Shown: piece after piece, positions 18,241 through 31,337 of the stretch
Position numbering within the stretch: the first letter of the stretch is position 1
Layout of the letters: every line of letters starts with the position of its first letter
Virus record (IMG/VR): IMGVR_UViG_3300035205_000606
Location: 1-31,567 of that record
Source: a virus
Direction: 5' to 3' (one strand)
Length of the DNA stretch: 31,567 nt
The notes under the pieces: model-generated
Seen by the model: the letters and a program-made list of their open reading frames with translations, nothing else
The model's database searches: none
What the model was told of the DNA's origin: nothing
Program-made: the position numbers and the translations under genes

Positions 18241-21200
18241 ATGATTAGATGGGGTGGAAAAAATAATACATTAATATTAAGGATGCTTGAGGAAGAAGAT
18301 AATTGGCCGTATAATCCTGCCAAGGAAATTGAGAATACAAATCCACCACCAACACAAGATGATACATTCGATGATATTCCAGAAGAAACTAATCCAGTTC
18401 CAGATTCAGAAGACCCACCAGTATCAGCAGATTTACCAGAAGTTTTAGAATATGAACCAGAACCAATTGACCCACCACCTTTACCTGCAGGTGTATTTCC
18501 AAGTGACGCTGATACGTGGGTCAGAGGTACTATTATTGAAAGGAATCAAACAAGGTTAATTAGACTTGATACTTCTTATACATCAGCCGCGTCAGATTTT
18601 TTTGGTGATGATGGTGCGTCTACAGTAGAAGTTCCATCAACACTTAGTTTTAGTGATGGTGAATTTACATTAGTTGGTGTTGGTAATTCTTTTCAAATTG
18701 CAAATACAGCGGCACTTAATGCTGGTGTACCAGAACCATATGTACCTTTGCCTGCAACATATAATATTCAAATAGGTGATACGTTTAGACTTGACAATGG
18801 TGAAGAATATTATGTAGATACTATTGATAATATGGGATTTTCGGCTAATGTACAAGACGAGATTAATGGAATTCAAGCGACAAATTTTGAAATAGATATA
18901 ACTACAGAAGAAGTTGTATTAGACCCAGTTGTAGAAACATATACTGATAATCAAGTTGATTTTTATGAAATAACAAGTACTGGTGAATCACCAATAAATT
19001 TACAAGAAAATACATTACAAGGTCAAGATGGAACTTTTTATGATATAGTACCTGGTGATAGGGTAGATGTAAAATTTTCACCACCAAGCGAAACTACTAC
19101 TCCTAATTGGTTGGGTGCATTTTTTGTTCCCATTCATGATATTAGAGAAGTAGCAATAGGTGATGATTATTTTGCGGCATTAGGTTTAACTCAATTTACA
19201 TTTAGTAATGGACAAACTATTTCGCCCGCTCAAACTCCATTAGAAAATTGGTGGATACAAACTGAATTAAATCTTGGTTCATTAACACCAGCTGATATAA
19301 CTGCGTATAATGAATGGGTAGCTAGTGATTTTAAAATTGCTCCAATACCACAAGTTGCAATAAAACCATTTGTATTTCAAGTTGGTTCTTATGGGCCACC
19401 TGACCCAGAAGACCTTGATATACAAGGTATATCTGAAGGTCTTTTATATGGCCAAAATGATAGTGGTAATGGGTTATTTACATTAGTAGAACAACAAGAG
19501 GCTGGATTTTATAGTGCTGGAAGTATAAATTATGGCACTATAGCTACCGAAAATGGAGTTAGTGTACAGACAGTTATAGACGCACACCAAGATTTATTAG
19601 CACAAATAAATGAATTTAATGCAACAGTAACTCAATTTGAAGAAGAAGTTGTTACGTGGACAGAAATTTATGGGCCAGATTTAATTCCATTATACGATAG
19701 TGACCAAGATAGTGGTACTTATGGTCAAATGTTATCTGATGAATTTCATTCAGCTCATCCTTTATATGATTGGTTTACTCAAGCTATTTCATTAGGACAA
19801 ATTTCACAAGACCAATTAAATGATTATCAAACTTGGTTATCAAGTGGTAGGACAATCTCACCATTTTCTATTGCACAATATCCACCACCACCATTTGTTA
19901 GTGAATTACCAGAATTAAATTTAAATGGGTGTGTTGATGATAGAGCTATGAATTGGCTTCCATGGGCGGCTATAGATGATGGGTCTTGTATGTATATTCC
20001 ACATATAGCTGATAGTATATTATGGCAATGGGGTGATGGTACATACGATGAACAATTACTTGAACCAGGTAATATAGAGCCATATAATCATACTTATACT
20101 CAGCCAGGTATTTATACAGTAAATATGTTTTTACGATATGTTGATGGTGATGTTGACGCATTTCAAACAAAAATTGCTGTAAAAACTGAACCAACTCCAG
20201 TTAAAAATTTATGGGAATGGGGTGATGGTGAGTTTGATGAAACGGAAGGTGAAGATATACCGCCAGGTCATATATATAAATCGCCTGGGTTATATCAAGT
20301 CACATTGACGACTTTATATAGTGATGGTATAGATACATACACTAAAACAACTTCACGTGAAGTAACAATATTTCCAAATGACGCTGCTAAAATTACTATG
20401 TTTGCGTATGGTAAAGAAGAAAATAGTTCTGATATAGAAAATGAAATGACATTTATTATTGGTGCTAGCGATGTTGATGGTCAAATTGTAAAATTCGAAT
20501 TTGATTATGGAGATGGTTCTGATATTATAGAAAGGGATGTTGAGTTAGAAGATAAAAAATACCATGATTCAGAATCTTTTACTGAACGTAAACGATATAG
20601 ACGACCAGGTGTTTATGTAGCCAAAGCTAGTGTAAGAGATAATAGTGGTAATATTAGTACTACACATAAAATTGTTTATATTGATGATGTAAAATATATA
20701 CCAACATACGAACCATATGTTGCACAAATTACTGATGTTATATCACCAACAATTATAGAAGTTGATAGAAGTTGGGCAGAAGAAGCTCAATTTGTTAAAC
20801 ACGTGTGGGGTAATCCTGGTTCACCAGCTCCAAATGAAGCTGAAGATGGTGAATGGGTTCAAGGAAAAGAATGGGAATATCCATTTAAAAGAGCACAATC
20901 TAATTGGAGATTAAAAGAAAAAAGAGATTTGAGAACACTTATAAATTTAGGTGGGGATAAATTTTCATTAGTAACTAATTTTAGAAGTGATAATTTAAGT
21001 TTTAACAATTGGCCAAATTCTGTAGTTTTTAAATTGTATACACCATTACCAACTAATATTAATGAAAAGGATTTTGTGTGGGTTTCGAGAGAAATGTTAC
21101 GACCAATTACAAAAGTTGTTAATTTAATAGATTTTGTTGATGAAAAAATAGATGGTATAGTATTGAGACAACCAGATTATTGGTCTACAGTTCTTCCATT

Positions 21201-24200
21201 TGAAAGTACAAGAACTGATTGGAAAAATAGAGAAAATATTGTATCAAGTAATTCTGATATTTCGAGTGAGTTAGAAGATAAATTTATTAGTCAAAGTGAT
21301 TTGAGTGCTGAATTGAATCATGATTATACTAATTATGAAAATTTTATAAAATTTAGTTCTATACAAAGAAGATATGATAATTTTGAATATAAAATTAAAC
21401 GTATAGAACATTATAATAATTTAAGTTCTTCACTTATACCTATAAGTGGTTCAACATCCGATATAAGAAGTGCAGAAAGAAGTATACGTGAAGTTAAAAA
21501 TAGTTTTGATGGATTTGAAAAGTATATGTATTTTCAATCTTCATCTTATTCAACAAGTTCACTTGGAGAATTTTATGATACTTCTTGGCCAAAAGTAAGT
21601 GGTACAGGAACTTTACTTAGTCCATATGTTTTAGCTCCATCAACGTCAAGTCAATATTTAAGATGGAAAGGTGGAAATGATGAAAGTGCATCTTTACATG
21701 ATAGACAAAATTTAGATAGGTTAGTAAACAATTTACCATTGCATGTTAGAGATGATGATAGAAATGAAGAATTTTTTAAATTTGTAGATATGATTGGACA
21801 CCACTTTGATGATATATGGTTATATACAAAAGCTTTAACTGATATAAATCATCGCACTAACAAAGTTGATGAAGGATTATCAAGAGATTTAGTACATGAA
21901 GTAGCTAAAGGATTTGGTTGGAAAGTTTACGATGGTAAAAATTTAATTAGTTTACCACAACATCAACTTGGAGTAGAAATATCAGGTTCTGATAATGTAG
22001 CAGTACAATCATCGGCTACAGCCGAAAGAGATATTACACGAGAAGTTTGGAATAGAATATTAGTTAATATGCCATATTTTTTAAAGACAAAAGGAACTTC
22101 ACGAGCATTAAAAGGATTAGTTAGTTGTTATGGTTTACCAACAACAATATTACGTGTAAGGGAATACGGCGGGCCTATTTTACCAGAACAAAACCCTGTA
22201 TATGAAATAACTCGTAAATATAGAAGGTCTTTAAATTTCTTTGGTAGTCAACACGTAGAAACAACTTGGACTGATGATACAAATTCTGGTAGAGTACCTG
22301 ATACGGTAGAATTTAGATTCAGAGCAGTACAATCTGGTAGTGGAGAATTTAAACAAGTACTTTACCAAAAAGGTACTGATTGGGCAATTACATTAAAGGA
22401 CGATGGTTCGGCAGATAACAATGGTTATTTAACATTTGCTATAACTGGTAGTTCTTCTAACGCAGAAATATCATCTTCATTATTACCAGTTTTCGATAAC
22501 GAGTTCTGGTCTGTAATGTTAACAAGGAAAAGTGCTAGTCTGGCATCACTGGTAGACGATGATAATAGTCGTAATATTGACTATGAGTTATTTCTTAAAA
22601 AATATGATGCTACAAGAAATAGAATTTACTATCAATCTTCTGCAAGTTTGAATGTAGATGGTCGTGGTGGTGGTGCTCCACAAGGAATGAATAATAGATT
22701 CCAACAAGATGCTGATGCATACATTGGTGGTGATACTTTAAGAACATTTGGTAATCAATTTACTGGTTCAATGATGGAATTTCGTTATTGGAATTCACCT
22801 TTATCACAATCTCATTTCGATAACCATGTTAGAGCTCCAAAAACTTATAATGGTAATCATCCATCAGCGTCTTATACTGATTTAGTTTTAAGATATTCGT
22901 TTGCTAAAGAAATAAATCATGGAACTGGTTCTATTGATATACTTGATACAAGTGCAGACCAAAGTTATTACCAAACTGGTAGTGCTAGAAATTATCCAGA
23001 TAGAAATAGTTACGATTATACCGAAGATGTAGAAGAATTACTCGTTCCAAATTTTGGCCCACAAATGAGACGAGCTACGAAAATAAGAATTGAAGAAAAT
23101 AGATTGATATATGGAAGTAAATTATCAATAGATAGTAGAAATGAAGTTAGTGCATATGATTTGACAAGTACAGATTCAAATAAACTCGGTGTTTTCTTTG
23201 CACCAACTGATGTTATAAATGAAGATATTATGTTTTCGATGGGTAATTTGGATTTTTCAGATTATATTGGTGACCCAAGAGACCAATTTAAAACTTATTA
23301 TAGTGGGTTAAGAAAAATAAAAGATTTATATTGGCAGAAATATACTTCACCTAATAGTTTTTGGGATTATATGAGAATTTTAAAATTCTATGATAAAGCT
23401 ATATTTGACCAAATAAAAACTTTAATTCCAGCTCGAGCTAATGCATCGTTAGGTACTTTAATTGAATCAAATATATTTGAACGTTCTAAAGCTATTATTG
23501 GACAACCACCAGAAATTGAAAATACATATTATGAAGATTCTATTGATTTAAATTATGCAGAATCTGCTAGTGGACAATACCTTGATACTGAAGGATTTAT
23601 TAGTGAATCTATGTACCCAAGTTTTACTGGTACAGAAGATTATTATCAAACATTTATTAGTGAATCGGTATATCCAGGGTTTACTGGTACAAGTGATTAC
23701 TATCAAACATTTATTAGTGAATCTGTATATCCAGGGTTTACTGGTACACAAGATTATTATCAAACATTTATTAGCGAATCTGTTGTTCCTAACTTATTTG
23801 GATTATATATTGATACTGATGGATTCATTAGCGAGTCTATGTATCCAAGTTTTACTGGTGAATATGATAATTATACAAGTAGTATAAATATTTTTTCAGA
23901 TATATTGTCGTGGAGTGGTACTTATGAAGATTTTTCAACAGTATCTTTATATGGCCCTAATTCTTCTACTACAGTAGATACTTTTGATACATTTAATATG
24001 CCATCATTATATAGTTTTACTAATAATGCAAGAGGTGATAACATATATAGTGGTTCTTATATAGCAGGTCACAATGGTGGATATTCTGGTGGACAAGATG
24101 GTAAGAGTATTTTTGAAGAAGTAACTGTACCTATGATTAGTAGTTCGAGACTATCAGAATATCATAAGATAGAAGAATATTTTTATAATACTAAAGAAAG

Positions 24201-24450
24201 TTTTTATAGGGGTGGTAATATGAATGTTAAAGAACATCAAAGATATCATTCAAATTCTTCTTCGTTGAGTCCTGCAGAAATAACACCACTTTATGAGAGT
24301 ACTACAGCTTTAAGAAATTTATTATTTGATGGTTGTAAACAAACGGATGATACAACACCAGATGGTAAAGAATCAGTAGAAGTAATTATAACTTCACCAA
24401 CTATTTTAACAACAAAAGAATCAGGCGATTCTAAATTAAGTGTAGAATAA
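18241..24450 (+). CDS. Giant baseplate/tail protein with PKD domains and 19-residue repeats (2069 residues)
   Basis: It begins MIRWGGKNNTLILRMLEEED, the docking module shared with two upstream genes, then a Pro/Asp-rich linker. A cysteine motif LNGCVDDRAMNWLPWAAIDD (GSC follows) lies near residues 561-583. Three PKD-like domains follow: WQWGDG at about 595, WEWGDG at about 657 and FDYGDG at about 754. PKD folds are surface adhesion domains. Residues about 1167-1310 (DDDRNEEFFKFVDMIGHHFD, then RILVNMPYFLKTKGTSRALK and CYGLPTTILRVREYGG) resemble large tail/baseplate proteins of related phages. A LamG-like beta sandwich spans about 1357-1530. Five tandem 19-residue repeats (FISES-Y-P-FTG) fill 1786-1880. 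It is probably a peripheral baseplate organiser that also displays binding domains; the exact role is inferred. Confidence 0.85.
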   Translation: MIRWGGKNNTLILRMLEEEDNWPYNPAKEIENTNPPPTQDDTFDDIPEETNPVPDSEDPPVSADLPEVLEYEPEPIDPPPLPAGVFPSDADTWVRGTIIERNQTRLIRLDTSYTSAASDFFGDDGASTVEVPSTLSFSDGEFTLVGVGNSFQIANTAALNAGVPEPYVPLPATYNIQIGDTFRLDNGEEYYVDTIDNMGFSANVQDEINGIQATNFEIDITTEEVVLDPVVETYTDNQVDFYEITSTGESPINLQENTLQGQDGTFYDIVPGDRVDVKFSPPSETTTPNWLGAFFVPIHDIREVAIGDDYFAALGLTQFTFSNGQTISPAQTPLENWWIQTELNLGSLTPADITAYNEWVASDFKIAPIPQVAIKPFVFQVGSYGPPDPEDLDIQGISEGLLYGQNDSGNGLFTLVEQQEAGFYSAGSINYGTIATENGVSVQTVIDAHQDLLAQINEFNATVTQFEEEVVTWTEIYGPDLIPLYDSDQDSGTYGQMLSDEFHSAHPLYDWFTQAISLGQISQDQLNDYQTWLSSGRTISPFSIAQYPPPPFVSELPELNLNGCVDDRAMNWLPWAAIDDGSCMYIPHIADSILWQWGDGTYDEQLLEPGNIEPYNHTYTQPGIYTVNMFLRYVDGDVDAFQTKIAVKTEPTPVKNLWEWGDGEFDETEGEDIPPGHIYKSPGLYQVTLTTLYSDGIDTYTKTTSREVTIFPNDAAKITMFAYGKEENSSDIENEMTFIIGASDVDGQIVKFEFDYGDGSDIIERDVELEDKKYHDSESFTERKRYRRPGVYVAKASVRDNSGNISTTHKIVYIDDVKYIPTYEPYVAQITDVISPTIIEVDRSWAEEAQFVKHVWGNPGSPAPNEAEDGEWVQGKEWEYPFKRAQSNWRLKEKRDLRTLINLGGDKFSLVTNFRSDNLSFNNWPNSVVFKLYTPLPTNINEKDFVWVSREMLRPITKVVNLIDFVDEKIDGIVLRQPDYWSTVLPFESTRTDWKNRENIVSSNSDISSELEDKFISQSDLSAELNHDYTNYENFIKFSSIQRRYDNFEYKIKRIEHYNNLSSSLIPISGSTSDIRSAERSIREVKNSFDGFEKYMYFQSSSYSTSSLGEFYDTSWPKVSGTGTLLSPYVLAPSTSSQYLRWKGGNDESASLHDRQNLDRLVNNLPLHVRDDDRNEEFFKFVDMIGHHFDDIWLYTKALTDINHRTNKVDEGLSRDLVHEVAKGFGWKVYDGKNLISLPQHQLGVEISGSDNVAVQSSATAERDITREVWNRILVNMPYFLKTKGTSRALKGLVSCYGLPTTILRVREYGGPILPEQNPVYEITRKYRRSLNFFGSQHVETTWTDDTNSGRVPDTVEFRFRAVQSGSGEFKQVLYQKGTDWAITLKDDGSADNNGYLTFAITGSSSNAEISSSLLPVFDNEFWSVMLTRKSASLASLVDDDNSRNIDYELFLKKYDATRNRIYYQSSASLNVDGRGGGAPQGMNNRFQQDADAYIGGDTLRTFGNQFTGSMMEFRYWNSPLSQSHFDNHVRAPKTYNGNHPSASYTDLVLRYSFAKEINHGTGSIDILDTSADQSYYQTGSARNYPDRNSYDYTEDVEELLVPNFGPQMRRATKIRIEENRLIYGSKLSIDSRNEVSAYDLTSTDSNKLGVFFAPTDVINEDIMFSMGNLDFSDYIGDPRDQFKTYYSGLRKIKDLYWQKYTSPNSFWDYMRILKFYDKAIFDQIKTLIPARANASLGTLIESNIFERSKAIIGQPPEIENTYYEDSIDLNYAESASGQYLDTEGFISESMYPSFTGTEDYYQTFISESVYPGFTGTSDYYQTFISESVYPGFTGTQDYYQTFISESVVPNLFGLYIDTDGFISESMYPSFTGEYDNYTSSINIFSDILSWSGTYEDFSTVSLYGPNSSTTVDTFDTFNMPSLYSFTNNARGDNIYSGSYIAGHNGGYSGGQDGKSIFEEVTVPMISSSRLSEYHKIEEYFYNTKESFYRGGNMNVKEHQRYHSNSSSLSPAEITPLYESTTALRNLLFDGCKQTDDTTPDGKESVEVIITSPTILTTKESGDSKLSVE
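23596..23880 (+). repeat. Five tandem 57-base repeats (19 residues each)
   Basis: Units start at 23596, 23653, 23710, 23767 and 23824, all exactly 57 bases apart, each opening with a TTYATTAGYGARTC-like sequence encoding FISES. The first three and the last keep Y-P-x-FTG; the fourth has diverged (VVPNLFGLYIDTDG). Units 2 and 3 are nearly identical at the DNA level, so copy number may vary between related phages. Confidence 0.93.
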
Positions 24451-27523: not shown

Positions 27524-28819
27524 ATGTTCAAAAACATCTTTATAGGACTATTATTGTCTACTTCTTTGTTTGGCCAAGATGTTATATTAAACTTTTTTAA
27601 ATATTCAACTGCATATGCGAGTTTTAGTTTAAATGCACCACGACATCAAGATGATAGGTTTAGTATTGTTGGTGGATTGAATACTGGTGATTTAGAAGTT
27701 GAAAGGGAAGAAAGAGAATTAAAAGCTGATTTTCAAAAATCTTTTGGATTGAGAAAGATTGGTCGTTTTAAGTATGAACCAAAACGAGGTGTGAAAAATG
27801 CTGGTGAAGGTGGAACTTGGTATGATGGTTCAGAAAAAAATGCGAATGAAAATGCAACATTTGGTCCAGTTAAAGGTTGGGAATATTTAATAAAATGGAC
27901 TGAAGGTCGTCAATGGGGAAATGAATACTTGAATCAAGAATATTGGTTGAGATATACTGGTAATTGGTTCATGGCTAAAGTAGGTTGGACGGAACTTGGT
28001 TTAGAAGAGATAACTTATGGTCAAGGTGATTTAAGATTAAAATGGTCACCAGATTTTCTAAATAATCAGCTAACATTTAGTGTTGGTGCAAAACATAGAC
28101 AACATCCTGTATATGGATTTGATGCTATGATATTAGATACAACTTGGTATAGAGGTTCTTGGTGGGATTTTGCTGAAGATGCTTTCGGTATGGATGACAA
28201 AAGATGGTATATAGTTGATGAAAATTTCGAAACTCATGAAGGTCACTTAGTATATTACGACGCAGAGTCAGATACTTGGATTGATGTACCTGGTGATGGC
28301 CCATTCTTTAATGGAGATGGTGAATTTATTGGGTATGATTATATGTGGGAAACTTCCGATGGAGAAATTATTGCATGGACGGATAGAGAATTTTTTGTTT
28401 ATCATTTTCCTGGTATGTTAGAATCATATATGAACAAACTACAGAAAAATTTAGGATATCAAAAAGAAACATCTTTAGTAATAGGTACTGATTATTATCA
28501 TTACGCTGAAAATTGGTGGGTACACGCATGGGGTAATTGGTTACCTTATCATTATGGTCATGATAAATATTCATATCACAACGCGTCTTCTTATATAGAC
28601 CATGTAGATGAAGGTAAAGAACCTTCTGATTTTATGTTTGTGGAGCCAATGTGGATGAGTTGGAATGACTATGATTTTGGTGCAATTTTTGGAATTAAAG
28701 TACAGGAAAATTTAGGACTTTTTGCGGAAGGCCGTTATTTATATTATTGGGAACGACCAGCGTATGATTTTAAAGTTGGTTTAAATTATCAATTTGTAGG
28801 ATTTAGTAATGCCGAATAG
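27524..28819 (+). CDS. Exported protein, putative outer-membrane beta-barrel (431 residues)
   Basis: Residues 1-18 (MFKNIFIGLLLSTSLFGQ) are a signal peptide typical of Bacteroidota-like bacteria. The mature part is rich in Trp, Tyr and Gly and in alternating hydrophobic/polar strands (YLIKWTEGRQWGNEYLNQEY, WLRYTGNWFMAKVGW, DYDFGAIFGIKVQENLGLFA, DFKVGLNYQFVGF). This matches the look of outer-membrane barrels, with the last strand ending in an aromatic FVGF close to the C-terminus. A middle segment (WYIVDENFETHEGHLVYYDA, GDGPFFNGDGEFIGYDYM) may be an extracellular plug or loop. No family is certain. Phage outer-membrane proteins can block further infection or alter permeability; that role is inferred. 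It is the first gene of the operon that includes the H-NOX protein. Confidence 0.7.
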   Translation: MFKNIFIGLLLSTSLFGQDVILNFFKYSTAYASFSLNAPRHQDDRFSIVGGLNTGDLEVEREERELKADFQKSFGLRKIGRFKYEPKRGVKNAGEGGTWYDGSEKNANENATFGPVKGWEYLIKWTEGRQWGNEYLNQEYWLRYTGNWFMAKVGWTELGLEEITYGQGDLRLKWSPDFLNNQLTFSVGAKHRQHPVYGFDAMILDTTWYRGSWWDFAEDAFGMDDKRWYIVDENFETHEGHLVYYDAESDTWIDVPGDGPFFNGDGEFIGYDYMWETSDGEIIAWTDREFFVYHFPGMLESYMNKLQKNLGYQKETSLVIGTDYYHYAENWWVHAWGNWLPYHYGHDKYSYHNASSYIDHVDEGKEPSDFMFVEPMWMSWNDYDFGAIFGIKVQENLGLFAEGRYLYYWERPAYDFKVGLNYQFVGFSNAE

Positions 28820-28957: not shown

Positions 28958-29509
28958 ATGTATGGAATGATAAATAAAGCAATAAGAACTTTAGTTACGC
29001 GTGAAGCGGGCGAAGAAGTTTGGGAACAAGTTCTTATAGCATCTGGTATAGACGAGGATGTATATGAAGATTTAGAATCTTATGATGATAGTGTAACATT
29101 CTCATTGGTGGGAGCAGTTTCAGAAACATTAGATATTCCTGCCGGAGATGTATTAGAAATGTTTGGTGTTTATTGGGCAACTGATGTCGCACCAAAAGGG
29201 TATGGTGAGTACTTTGAAGCGTTTGGTAATGACTTTCAAAGTTTTGTAGCAGGATTAGATGAAATGCATGTACGAATTACAAAAATGTTACCAAGTTTAG
29301 TTCCACCTTCATTTAAAATAGAAGAACTCGGTGAGAATCATTTTGAAATTCATTATGTATCACAGAGAGATGGATTAGCTCCATTGGCAGTTGGAATGTT
29401 AAAAGGAGTGGCTCAACACTTTGGTGGTGAGGCAGATATAACACAAATAGAATATAAAGGAACTGATGACCACGATGTGTTTGATGTTCAATTTAATGAG
29501 AGCGAATAA
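28958..29509 (+). CDS. H-NOX haem-binding nitric oxide/oxygen sensor protein
   Basis: H-NOX domains bind haem and sense NO or O2; in bacteria they usually regulate histidine kinases or cyclic-di-GMP enzymes. The full 183-residue protein is a single H-NOX domain of usual length (about 180). It begins MYGMINKAIRTLVTREAGEE like known family members and has the proximal haem ligand in GLDEMHVRITKMLP (His104). It ends with the haem-propionate motif Y133-V-S-Q-R137 followed by DGLAPLAVGMLKG. The position equivalent to Tyr140 of the O2-binding thermophilic H-NOX is Pro142, so the distal pocket looks non-polar and NO-selective, as in many facultative bacteria. The start is two bases after the tiny basic gene; the end overlaps the next gene by one base (TAATG), so the MshEN partner is translationally coupled. 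Confidence 0.93.
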   Translation: MYGMINKAIRTLVTREAGEEVWEQVLIASGIDEDVYEDLESYDDSVTFSLVGAVSETLDIPAGDVLEMFGVYWATDVAPKGYGEYFEAFGNDFQSFVAGLDEMHVRITKMLPSLVPPSFKIEELGENHFEIHYVSQRDGLAPLAVGMLKGVAQHFGGEADITQIEYKGTDDHDVFDVQFNESE

Positions 29510-30168
29510 TGGCATTGAATGGAAAAAGATTAGGCAACCTTTTAATGGACGCCGATATCATAACAAAGAGACAACTTGCACAAGCTTGTGCGAAACAAGG
29601 ACAAGGCGATAAAAGAAAGTTAGGTGAAATTCTTGTTGAAATGGGTTATGTTACTGTAGAAGATTTAACAGAAGTTATGATGGAACAAGCTAGTAGAGCC
29701 GTAGACGAAGCAGAAAAAGGTAAACGAGATAGATTATTACAAAAACAAATTTCAAAATCAAAGAGTAAATCGAAACCAGTTATACAGGAGAAAAAAGTGT
29801 CCAAACCAAAAGAATTAAGTGAAGAAGCAGTACTAAGTACTAAGTTCACTTTATCAGTACAAACAATGATTGGTGCGGCAACAGGTATCGCATCTTTTGT
29901 AGGGATGTGGTATATGTTACAAGCAGATATACAAGAAGCTAAAGAGCTTCCATCATTAAAATCATTATATGAAGGAGAGTATCCATCAAAGGCACCAGGA
30001 TATAATTGGCCAACTTCATATGAACAATATAAAAATCAAGTTGGTACTCTTCAAAGTGATATGGATGAAGTATTAGATAAATTAGATGAATTTGATGAAG
30101 TTATTGAAGATTTGGAAAAAACTGTAACTGATTTAAGAATTAAGTTGGCTAATAAGAGAGATAAATAG
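29509..30168 (+). CDS. MshEN-domain membrane protein with coiled coil (219 residues)
   Basis: Residues 7-30 and 37-60 are two tandem 24-residue motifs starting RLGNLL and KLGEIL, each with the conserved Leu/Ile spacing and final Gln (Q30, Q60). This is the pattern of the MshEN domain, which binds cyclic-di-GMP in type II secretion/MSH pilus ATPases. A charged Lys/Ser-rich linker (to about 112), one transmembrane helix at about 117-137 (VQTMIGAATGIASFVGMWYM) and a long acidic coiled coil at 186-215 follow. No ATPase domain is present. The gene overlaps the H-NOX gene and is 11 bases before the thioredoxin-like gene. A plausible role is a membrane scaffold that answers to cyclic-di-GMP or to the H-NOX protein. 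The MshEN call rests on motif spacing; ligand binding is inferred. Confidence 0.75.
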   Translation: MALNGKRLGNLLMDADIITKRQLAQACAKQGQGDKRKLGEILVEMGYVTVEDLTEVMMEQASRAVDEAEKGKRDRLLQKQISKSKSKSKPVIQEKKVSKPKELSEEAVLSTKFTLSVQTMIGAATGIASFVGMWYMLQADIQEAKELPSLKSLYEGEYPSKAPGYNWPTSYEQYKNQVGTLQSDMDEVLDKLDEFDEVIEDLEKTVTDLRIKLANKRDK

Positions 30169-30179
30169 GAGCAAATGTT

Positions 30180-30590
30180 ATGAGTAATATAATCAAAAGA
30201 GGATTCTATTGGTTGTTTGGATTATTTTTATTTTGTGGTTGGACTACTATAGTATGGGGCCAAGATGCAACAGATAAAAATTTTAAGGAAAAAACTTCAA
30301 AAGGATTTGTAGTTGTTAAATTCACTTCAAAATGGCAAGGTAGTAAATTGGATGATAAATTATTTGATGGAGTTAAAGGACATGAAGATGCTAAGATTTT
30401 AATAGTTGCATCAGAAGATGCGAAAAAAGTTTGTAAAAAGTTAAGATTGAGAAATTTTCCATCTATAGTTTTATTTCACAATGGTAAAAAGAAAGAAGTT
30501 TGGAAAGCCGATATGGATGGGAAGGTTGATATAACCAATAAAGATATTAAAAAAGCAATATCAGACGCTATGAGCGGTGATGTTTATTAG
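30180..30590 (+). CDS. Exported thioredoxin-fold protein lacking the CxxC motif
   Basis: Residues about 8-27 (GFYWLFGLFLFCGWTTIVWG) form a signal or anchor helix, so the protein acts in the periplasm. The rest has thioredoxin order: a strand GFVVVKFTS, the active-site turn, a helix, KILIVASEDAKKVCKKL, then FPSIVLFHNGKKKEVW with the cis-proline (Pro94). The site that normally reads W-C-G-P-C is here W52-Q53-G54-S55-K56, with both redox cysteines lost. It therefore cannot be a standard thiol oxidoreductase and may be a binding or chaperone protein. It lies between the MshEN and holin genes, with AGGAG upstream and TAGGAG after. The thioredoxin-fold call is fairly clear; partner unknown. Confidence 0.75.
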   Translation: MSNIIKRGFYWLFGLFLFCGWTTIVWGQDATDKNFKEKTSKGFVVVKFTSKWQGSKLDDKLFDGVKGHEDAKILIVASEDAKKVCKKLRLRNFPSIVLFHNGKKKEVWKADMDGKVDITNKDIKKAISDAMSGDVY

Positions 30591-30600
30591 GAGATAAGTT

Positions 30601-31005
30601 ATGGGAGTTGTAAGTACAATAACAGGTTTTTTAAGTGGTGGTGATGTAATAAAAGATATTGGTGGAGTATTAGATAATTTACATACATCAGGTGAAGAAA
30701 AAGCCGAAGCAGAACAAAAGATAACACAAATATTAGCAACAGCCGAACAAGCCGCACAAGCACAAGTATCTGCTCGTTGGGAAGCTGACATGAAACATGG
30801 AAGTTGGTTAAGTAAAAATATTAGACCTTTGACCTTAATTTTTCTTACAGCGGTATTTGTTATATTAAGTGTATTTGATGGAAATATGGGTGATTTTACA
30901 ATAGGAGCGGCGTATGTTCCAGTTTATCAGACATTATTGATGACTGTATATGCGGCTTATTTTGCAGGTCGTTCTATAGAAAAGGTTAAAAAAGTAACAA
31001 AATAA
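30601..31005 (+). CDS. Holin (Holin_3TMs-like)
   Basis: Holins form lethal membrane lesions that let lysis enzymes reach the peptidoglycan and set lysis time. The 134-residue protein has the layout of the Holin_3TMs family: an amphipathic N-terminus (MGVVSTITGFLSGGDVIKD), an Ala/Gln-rich helix with KITQILATAEQAAQAQVSAR, and the typical WEADMKHGSWLSKNIRPLTL. Two membrane helices follow, at about 74-92 and 103-123, with FAGRSIEKVKK at the end. Such proteins occur in gene-transfer agents and marine phages. It has TAGGAG at correct spacing and overlaps the next gene by one base. It is in the same operon as the H-NOX and MshEN genes, which suggests a link between those signals and lysis. That link is inferred. 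Confidence 0.85.
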   Translation: MGVVSTITGFLSGGDVIKDIGGVLDNLHTSGEEKAEAEQKITQILATAEQAAQAQVSARWEADMKHGSWLSKNIRPLTLIFLTAVFVILSVFDGNMGDFTIGAAYVPVYQTLLMTVYAAYFAGRSIEKVKKVTK

Positions 31006-31337
31006 TGGCGGCGACTGGAGATTGTTATAGAGCAAATGGACGCATTGTAATGGAGAAGATGGGTGCGTCAGATGAAAAGAAATGGAAACTTTGTCATGGA
31101 GTGGGTATTTTACAAACAGACGGAAAACCATTTGGACACGCTTGGGTAGAACATGGTAGTAGGTGTATTGACCAAAGTAATGGACAAGATATAAATTTTC
31201 CAAAACAATTATATTATGCTTTAGGTAACATTCCAGTTAAAGGATATAAGATTTATAAATACAGTCCTGAGGAAACAGGAATTACTATGATAAGAAATAA
31301 ACATTGGGGGCCTTGGGATTCCAAACCACCGAGATAA
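31005..31337 (+). CDS. Hypothetical 110-residue protein with possible Cys-His-Asp triad
   Basis: Begins MAATGDCYRANGRIVMEKMG. A GHAWVE motif (His45) and CIDQSNGQ (Asp56) follow the N-terminal GDCY (Cys7). This order and spacing resembles small papain/NlpC- or transglutaminase-like folds, though far shorter than typical members, so it is a suggestion only. It follows the holin with a one-base overlap (TAATG), where phages often place a lysis enzyme. There is no signal peptide. It has been seen by me as a conserved phage hypothetical. If it is catalytic, it could cleave peptide cross-links or modify a host protein. Confidence 0.7.
   Translation: MAATGDCYRANGRIVMEKMGASDEKKWKLCHGVGILQTDGKPFGHAWVEHGSRCIDQSNGQDINFPKQLYYALGNIPVKGYKIYKYSPEETGITMIRNKHWGPWDSKPPR

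Follow-up and report, generated by a model that had tools for sequence, protein, structure and literature searches.

The reading frame that follows a small basic protein gene in the window (the whole 31,567-nucleotide stretch of viral DNA analysed here) encodes a genuine, intact H-NOX of the NO-binding type, an identification that we regard as near certain. It is a real and apparently undescribed phage-encoded H-NOX, located within a mobile, conserved module together with a partner of a new type. The first-pass annotation had claimed a complete and intact H-NOX at this position, and had proposed a profile search and a structural overlay as checks; both gave clear support. A Pfam profile search matched the 183-residue product to PF07700 (HNOB) over residues 2–162 (2e-46) with a score of 158 bits, the cut-off being 25.5 bits. 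The AlphaFold2 model (pLDDT 85, pTM 0.82) superimposed on the Nostoc H-NOX structure 2o09 with a TM score of 0.91 and an rmsd of 1.8, and human sGC beta1 was also matched. The nearest solved proteins were Nostoc Alr2278 (38% identity), followed by human sGC beta1. Like Alr2278 and other stand-alone bacterial H-NOX proteins, the phage protein thus has the full fold, the proximal histidine, the YxSxR motif, a distal tryptophan and a non-polar pocket. The features of the region are collected in Table 1.

Table 1. Positions in the window of the H-NOX gene, its partner gene and their neighbours.
Feature	Position	Strand	Remarks
Outer-membrane-like protein (OMP)	27524..28819	+	Signal-peptide-like start; upstream neighbour in group A
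Small very basic protein, 48 aa	28809..28955	+	Variable slot between OMP gene and H-NOX
H-NOX gene	28958..29509	+	183 aa, ATG start, no internal stop
H-NOX distal Trp73 codon	29174-29176	+	Alignment to Alr2278
H-NOX His104 codon	29267-29269	+	Haem-ligand position
H-NOX Tyr133-Ser135-Arg137 codons	29354-29368	+	YxSxR motif
H-NOX distal Leu143 codon	29384-29386	+	Alignment to Alr2278
Partner gene	29509..30168	+	219 aa; MshEN domain, linker helix, probable transmembrane helix and coiled coil
MshEN domain, partner residues 7-60	29527..29688	+	PilB/MshE N-terminal, c-di-GMP-receptor-like; profile, fold, motif scan
Linker-helix segment, partner residues 66-84 (DEAEKGKRDRLLQKQISKS)	29704..29760	+	H-NOX-linked partners only; candidate H-NOX docking site
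Probable transmembrane helix, partner residues 113-137	29845..29919	+	Background-specific output part starts here
Exported thioredoxin-fold protein	30180..30590	+	PF00085 1.9e-6; directly after MshEN gene
Holin	30601..31005	+	phrog_3427 1.1e-26; PF11351 weak

With regard to the haem pocket, alignment placed phage His104, Tyr133, Ser135 and Arg137 on Alr2278 His105, Tyr134, Ser136 and Arg138, in agreement with the proximal histidine and YxSxR motif named by the annotation. The annotation had taken a loss of these residues in phage homologues as grounds for rejecting its claim; they are unchanged in the nine full-length viral H-NOX copies. It had also predicted NO sensing from a non-polar distal residue, Pro142. 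The non-polar character stands, but the residue concerned is Leu143, one position off, which aligns with Alr2278 Met144 and with the position of Tyr140 in O2-binding H-NOX; Trp73 likewise occupies a pocket position. A distal tyrosine is present in O2-binding H-NOX and missing in NO-binding H-NOX of facultative anaerobes (PMC8738867). Since the alignment to Alr2278 revealed no distal tyrosine in the phage pocket, we assign the protein to the NO type, and it is predicted to bind both haem and NO.

A viral-database search, which had likewise been proposed, detected H-NOX in 14 further IMG/VR contigs (77–95% identity, some of them near-duplicates), and the H-NOX contigs span at least three unrelated tailed-phage backgrounds. 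Group A (the window, L002, L003, L011 and their kin) has a GC content of about 31–32%, group B (G005 and G007) has 41–44% GC and carries head, tail-spike and endolysin genes, and a further contig, G008, has 38% GC with a tape-measure gene upstream. H-NOX and the next gene are essentially the sole genes common to the different groups. The window is an IMG/VR record that encodes the baseplate wedge proteins gp25 and J as well as a holin, which fits the described placement of H-NOX among phage structural and lysis genes; H-NOX belongs to a late-gene region there, close to the holin. Its baseplate protein is similar (40–46%) to that of large phages of Microcystis and Flavobacterium, so the window probably comes from the genome of a large phage with a contractile tail. 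The annotation knew of no described phage H-NOX, and consistent with this, none was found in 50,697 phage records, no viral homologue in PHROGs or BFVD, and no description of a viral H-NOX in the open-access papers that were examined.

It is exceedingly improbable that the gene lies on host DNA misbinned or misclassed as viral. IMG/VR records are predictions and the completeness of the window is unlisted, but H-NOX is flanked by baseplate, holin, head, tail and endolysin genes in independent contigs, which rules out host contamination. In addition, the viral copies form one clade (support 100/100) apart from all cellular ones.

In contrast to the known bacterial H-NOX proteins, the phage copy is thus virus-encoded and belongs to a clade of its own, with at most 43% identity to any cellular protein found (a value from a seed-limited scan of genome contigs; closer cellular relatives may exist). 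The dN/dS values of viral H-NOX were about 0.03–0.12, and synonymous sites were near saturation between groups. Viral H-NOX is under strong purifying selection. As the proteins are still 77–93% identical between groups in spite of the near-saturated synonymous sites, their conservation is not due to chance, and together with the low dN/dS it indicates that H-NOX has long been maintained in phages. The same synonymous saturation and the distance to the nearest cellular protein found rule out that phages took up the gene only recently from a known cellular source.

Wherever a contig extends beyond H-NOX, unrelated backgrounds included, the partner gene overlaps or directly abuts H-NOX (in the window its start overlaps the H-NOX stop, as TAATG). 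The pairing is obligate; it is the most telling feature of the locus, and the annotation had overlooked it. A profile-to-PDB search matched the N-terminal domain of the partner to PilF (1.8e-11), PilB (1.6e-10) and MshE (5htl, 1.5e-5), whereas a single-protein Pfam scan reported no MshEN domain. The domain has the four-helix fold of MshEN, and its top Foldseek matches (5htl, 9g1w and 8pfa; probability 0.99–1.00, with weak E-values of 0.05–0.3) were the c-di-GMP-bound domains of MshE and PilF, with an rmsd of about 1.4. MshEN domains bind c-di-GMP through two 24-residue motifs (PMC5013675). According to a motif scan, motif I of the window partner, RLGNLLMDADIITKRQLAQACAKQ, fits apart from Gly10 to Asp and Leu21 to Cys, and motif II, KLGEILVEMGYVTVEDLTEVMMEQ, fits the published motif; group B partners lack the motif II Gln. 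The partner thus resembles the MshEN/GSPII domains of V. cholerae MshE and T. thermophilus PilF in its four-helix, tandem-motif domain (superimposing over about 54 residues) and, in the window copy, in keeping most key c-di-GMP motif residues, and binding of c-di-GMP is plausible as judged by these motifs. Unlike MshE and PilF, it has Asp at motif I position 10 and no ATPase, and carries instead a linker helix, a probable transmembrane helix and a coiled coil. The hydropathy of the transmembrane helix is modest (1.37 over 19 residues); the protein is predicted to have an inner-membrane anchor and a cytoplasmic MshEN domain.

All H-NOX-linked partner proteins (12/12) contained the linker pattern EKxKRDxxLQxQI, against 0/28 of those without H-NOX (8/8 versus 0/17 with near-copies removed), an association that is phylogenetically non-independent and would equally arise from a single shared ancestry of the module. 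A single branch (98/99) sets the N-domains of H-NOX-linked partners apart, while the tree of the transmembrane region, which is poorly resolved, tracks the phage background. The module is mobile, and since the N-domains group together and the membrane part goes by background, what travels seems to be H-NOX with the MshEN domain and linker, to which each background adds a local membrane output. The MshEN-transmembrane protein is also common in marine phages without H-NOX (28 cases) and therefore has a function independent of H-NOX.

Some H-NOX-free relatives carry other genes in this neighbourhood. Small proteins like the very basic one in Table 1 fill the same slot. Three relatives (L021, L031 and L042) encode a membrane protein with Popeye and cNMP-binding domains about 0.4–0.7 kb after the MshEN gene; the one scored, that of L021 (Popeye/POPDC 2.8e-14, cNMP-binding 2.1e-15), is a cyclic-nucleotide receptor. 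In three others (L020, L040 and L041), proteins of about 211–219 residues that look pseudopilin-like by eye lie downstream of a PilB-type MshEN gene, and Pfam gave no pilin match for them.

Bacterial H-NOX proteins are partnered by a kinase, cyclase or phosphodiesterase, whereas the partner of phage H-NOX is the MshEN membrane protein; genetic partners of the usual kinds (kinase, GGDEF/EAL or MCP fusion, which are common but not defining) were not found in the phages. None of the cellular H-NOX relatives has an MshEN neighbour. H-NOX and the MshEN membrane protein likely function as a sensor pair. One could instead suppose that viral H-NOX plugs into H-NOX-responsive kinases or diguanylate cyclases of the host, altering biofilm or motility, and that the MshEN neighbour is incidental. 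Such a role would accord with the kinase or GGDEF genes that adjoin cellular H-NOX genes and with the action of cellular H-NOX via c-di-GMP (PMC8738867). However, the genes beside viral H-NOX included no recognisable kinase or cyclase, and the MshEN neighbour is constant across unrelated phages. The candidate host argues in the same direction. A contig from a Candidatus Marinimicrobia MAG stops within H-NOX (26 aa, 92%), directly after a tape-measure gene, and a second contig of the same MAG starts within the partner gene. MAG binning thus weakly supports a host that is probably Marinimicrobia-like; no host flank was seen beside the module in these contigs, and the OMP gene was rejected as a host marker, as it gave 0 matches in 244 Marinimicrobia-phylum genomes in a search whose empty outcome, lacking a positive control, carries no weight. 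GGDEF cyclase proteins occur in 162/199 genomes of this phylum, but H-NOX in only 2/245, both distant, so cognate host partners are unlikely to exist. We therefore consider a role through host partners fairly improbable.

Still less probable, in our judgement, is a role without signalling, in which H-NOX would protect replication by scavenging NO, CO or haem or acting as a sink for them. H-NOX does bind NO tightly. Marine viruses are known to carry the NO-metabolism genes nirK and norB (PMC8115048). These auxiliary genes resemble phage H-NOX in dealing with nitric oxide, but their products are enzymes and H-NOX is a sensor. A stoichiometric sink would moreover be inefficient, and the near-invariance of the whole protein and its association throughout with one particular linker segment better fit protein–protein signalling.

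We favour, with moderate confidence, the reading that the two genes form a phage-borne, horizontally mobile gas-sensing switch, in which H-NOX docks on the MshEN membrane protein and the output reaches the envelope late. The occurrence of the MshEN protein in H-NOX-free phages, the non-independence of the linker association, the motif deviations and the modest hydropathy of the membrane helix count against it. H-NOX would load host haem in the infected cell, and binding of NO would break the bond between His104 and iron and turn the distal subdomain, by analogy with known H-NOX. This turn would alter the grip of H-NOX on the linker helix, which connects the MshEN domain to the membrane helix and which we infer to be the docking site, and the MshEN domain could supply c-di-GMP as an additional input. 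The combined state would then pass through the membrane helix and the background-specific coiled coil to the envelope, late in infection. The most likely output would be holin or endolysin timing, followed by control of pili or of superinfection.

Lysis control, one of two roles suggested by the annotation (the other being a change in host biofilm behaviour), is the leading candidate among the possible outputs; both roles are hypothetical. A stricter form, in which the MshEN membrane protein relays the NO (and c-di-GMP) state to the holin in the manner of a cytoplasmic and a membrane antiholin, is conceivable but on balance unlikely. The T4 antiholins RI and RIII are phage proteins of the membrane and the cytoplasm that tune lysis in response to signals; the phage pair resembles them in this two-part arrangement (a likeness of design), but they are not known to have a haem or second-messenger domain. 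A holin gene lies 1.1 kb downstream in group A and an endolysin gene about 1.4 kb downstream of the module in group B, the partner has a membrane-plus-coiled-coil design, and three members show weak similarity to XhlA. On the other hand, the coiled coil is far shorter in group B, and in the Marinimicrobia-MAG phage the module lies between the tape-measure gene and structural-looking genes, with a lysozyme-like gene about 9 kb upstream.

More tentatively, the module may be a mobile coincidence detector in which H-NOX (for NO) and MshEN (for c-di-GMP) act on one membrane protein to decide a late step such as lysis, a reading that we consider on balance unlikely. Under it, the Popeye-domain cyclic-nucleotide receptor would appear to replace H-NOX in the same gene neighbourhood of the relatives.

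Several further genes of the window were characterised. The thioredoxin-fold protein lacks a CxxC active site in the window, as do all 44 of its equivalents (0/44). The holin gene is followed by one for a 110-residue protein (31005-31337) with weak transglutaminase-like similarity (0.023). Elsewhere the window contains an IMP dehydrogenase/GMP reductase family gene (449-1648, 1.4e-102) and encodes a 2069-residue protein with PKD domains (18241-24450), possibly a giant adhesin or tail component. The T4-type late promoter TATAAATA had 12 matches versus 8.3 expected, none of them directly upstream of H-NOX; as 10/100 shuffles gave as many, the count was uninformative and the promoter was set aside as a regulatory signal.

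Cellular H-NOX is a textbook example of a gas sensor, and the MshEN domain binds the second messenger cyclic-di-GMP in bacteria. The presence of the pair in unrelated ocean phages suggests that a phage can sense both kinds of signal, gas and second messenger, in the cell that it infects. According to a review, an H-NOX has yet to be solved at high resolution together with its partner (PMC8738867). The phage pair, a small stand-alone H-NOX/partner system, offers a short helix as candidate docking site and could open this question to a direct test. If the coincidence-detector reading were true, host second messengers and gas would govern phage infection. With a strongly selected, mobile H-NOX and a new type of partner, phages may be able to track NO, and perhaps also c-di-GMP, in the cells they infect.
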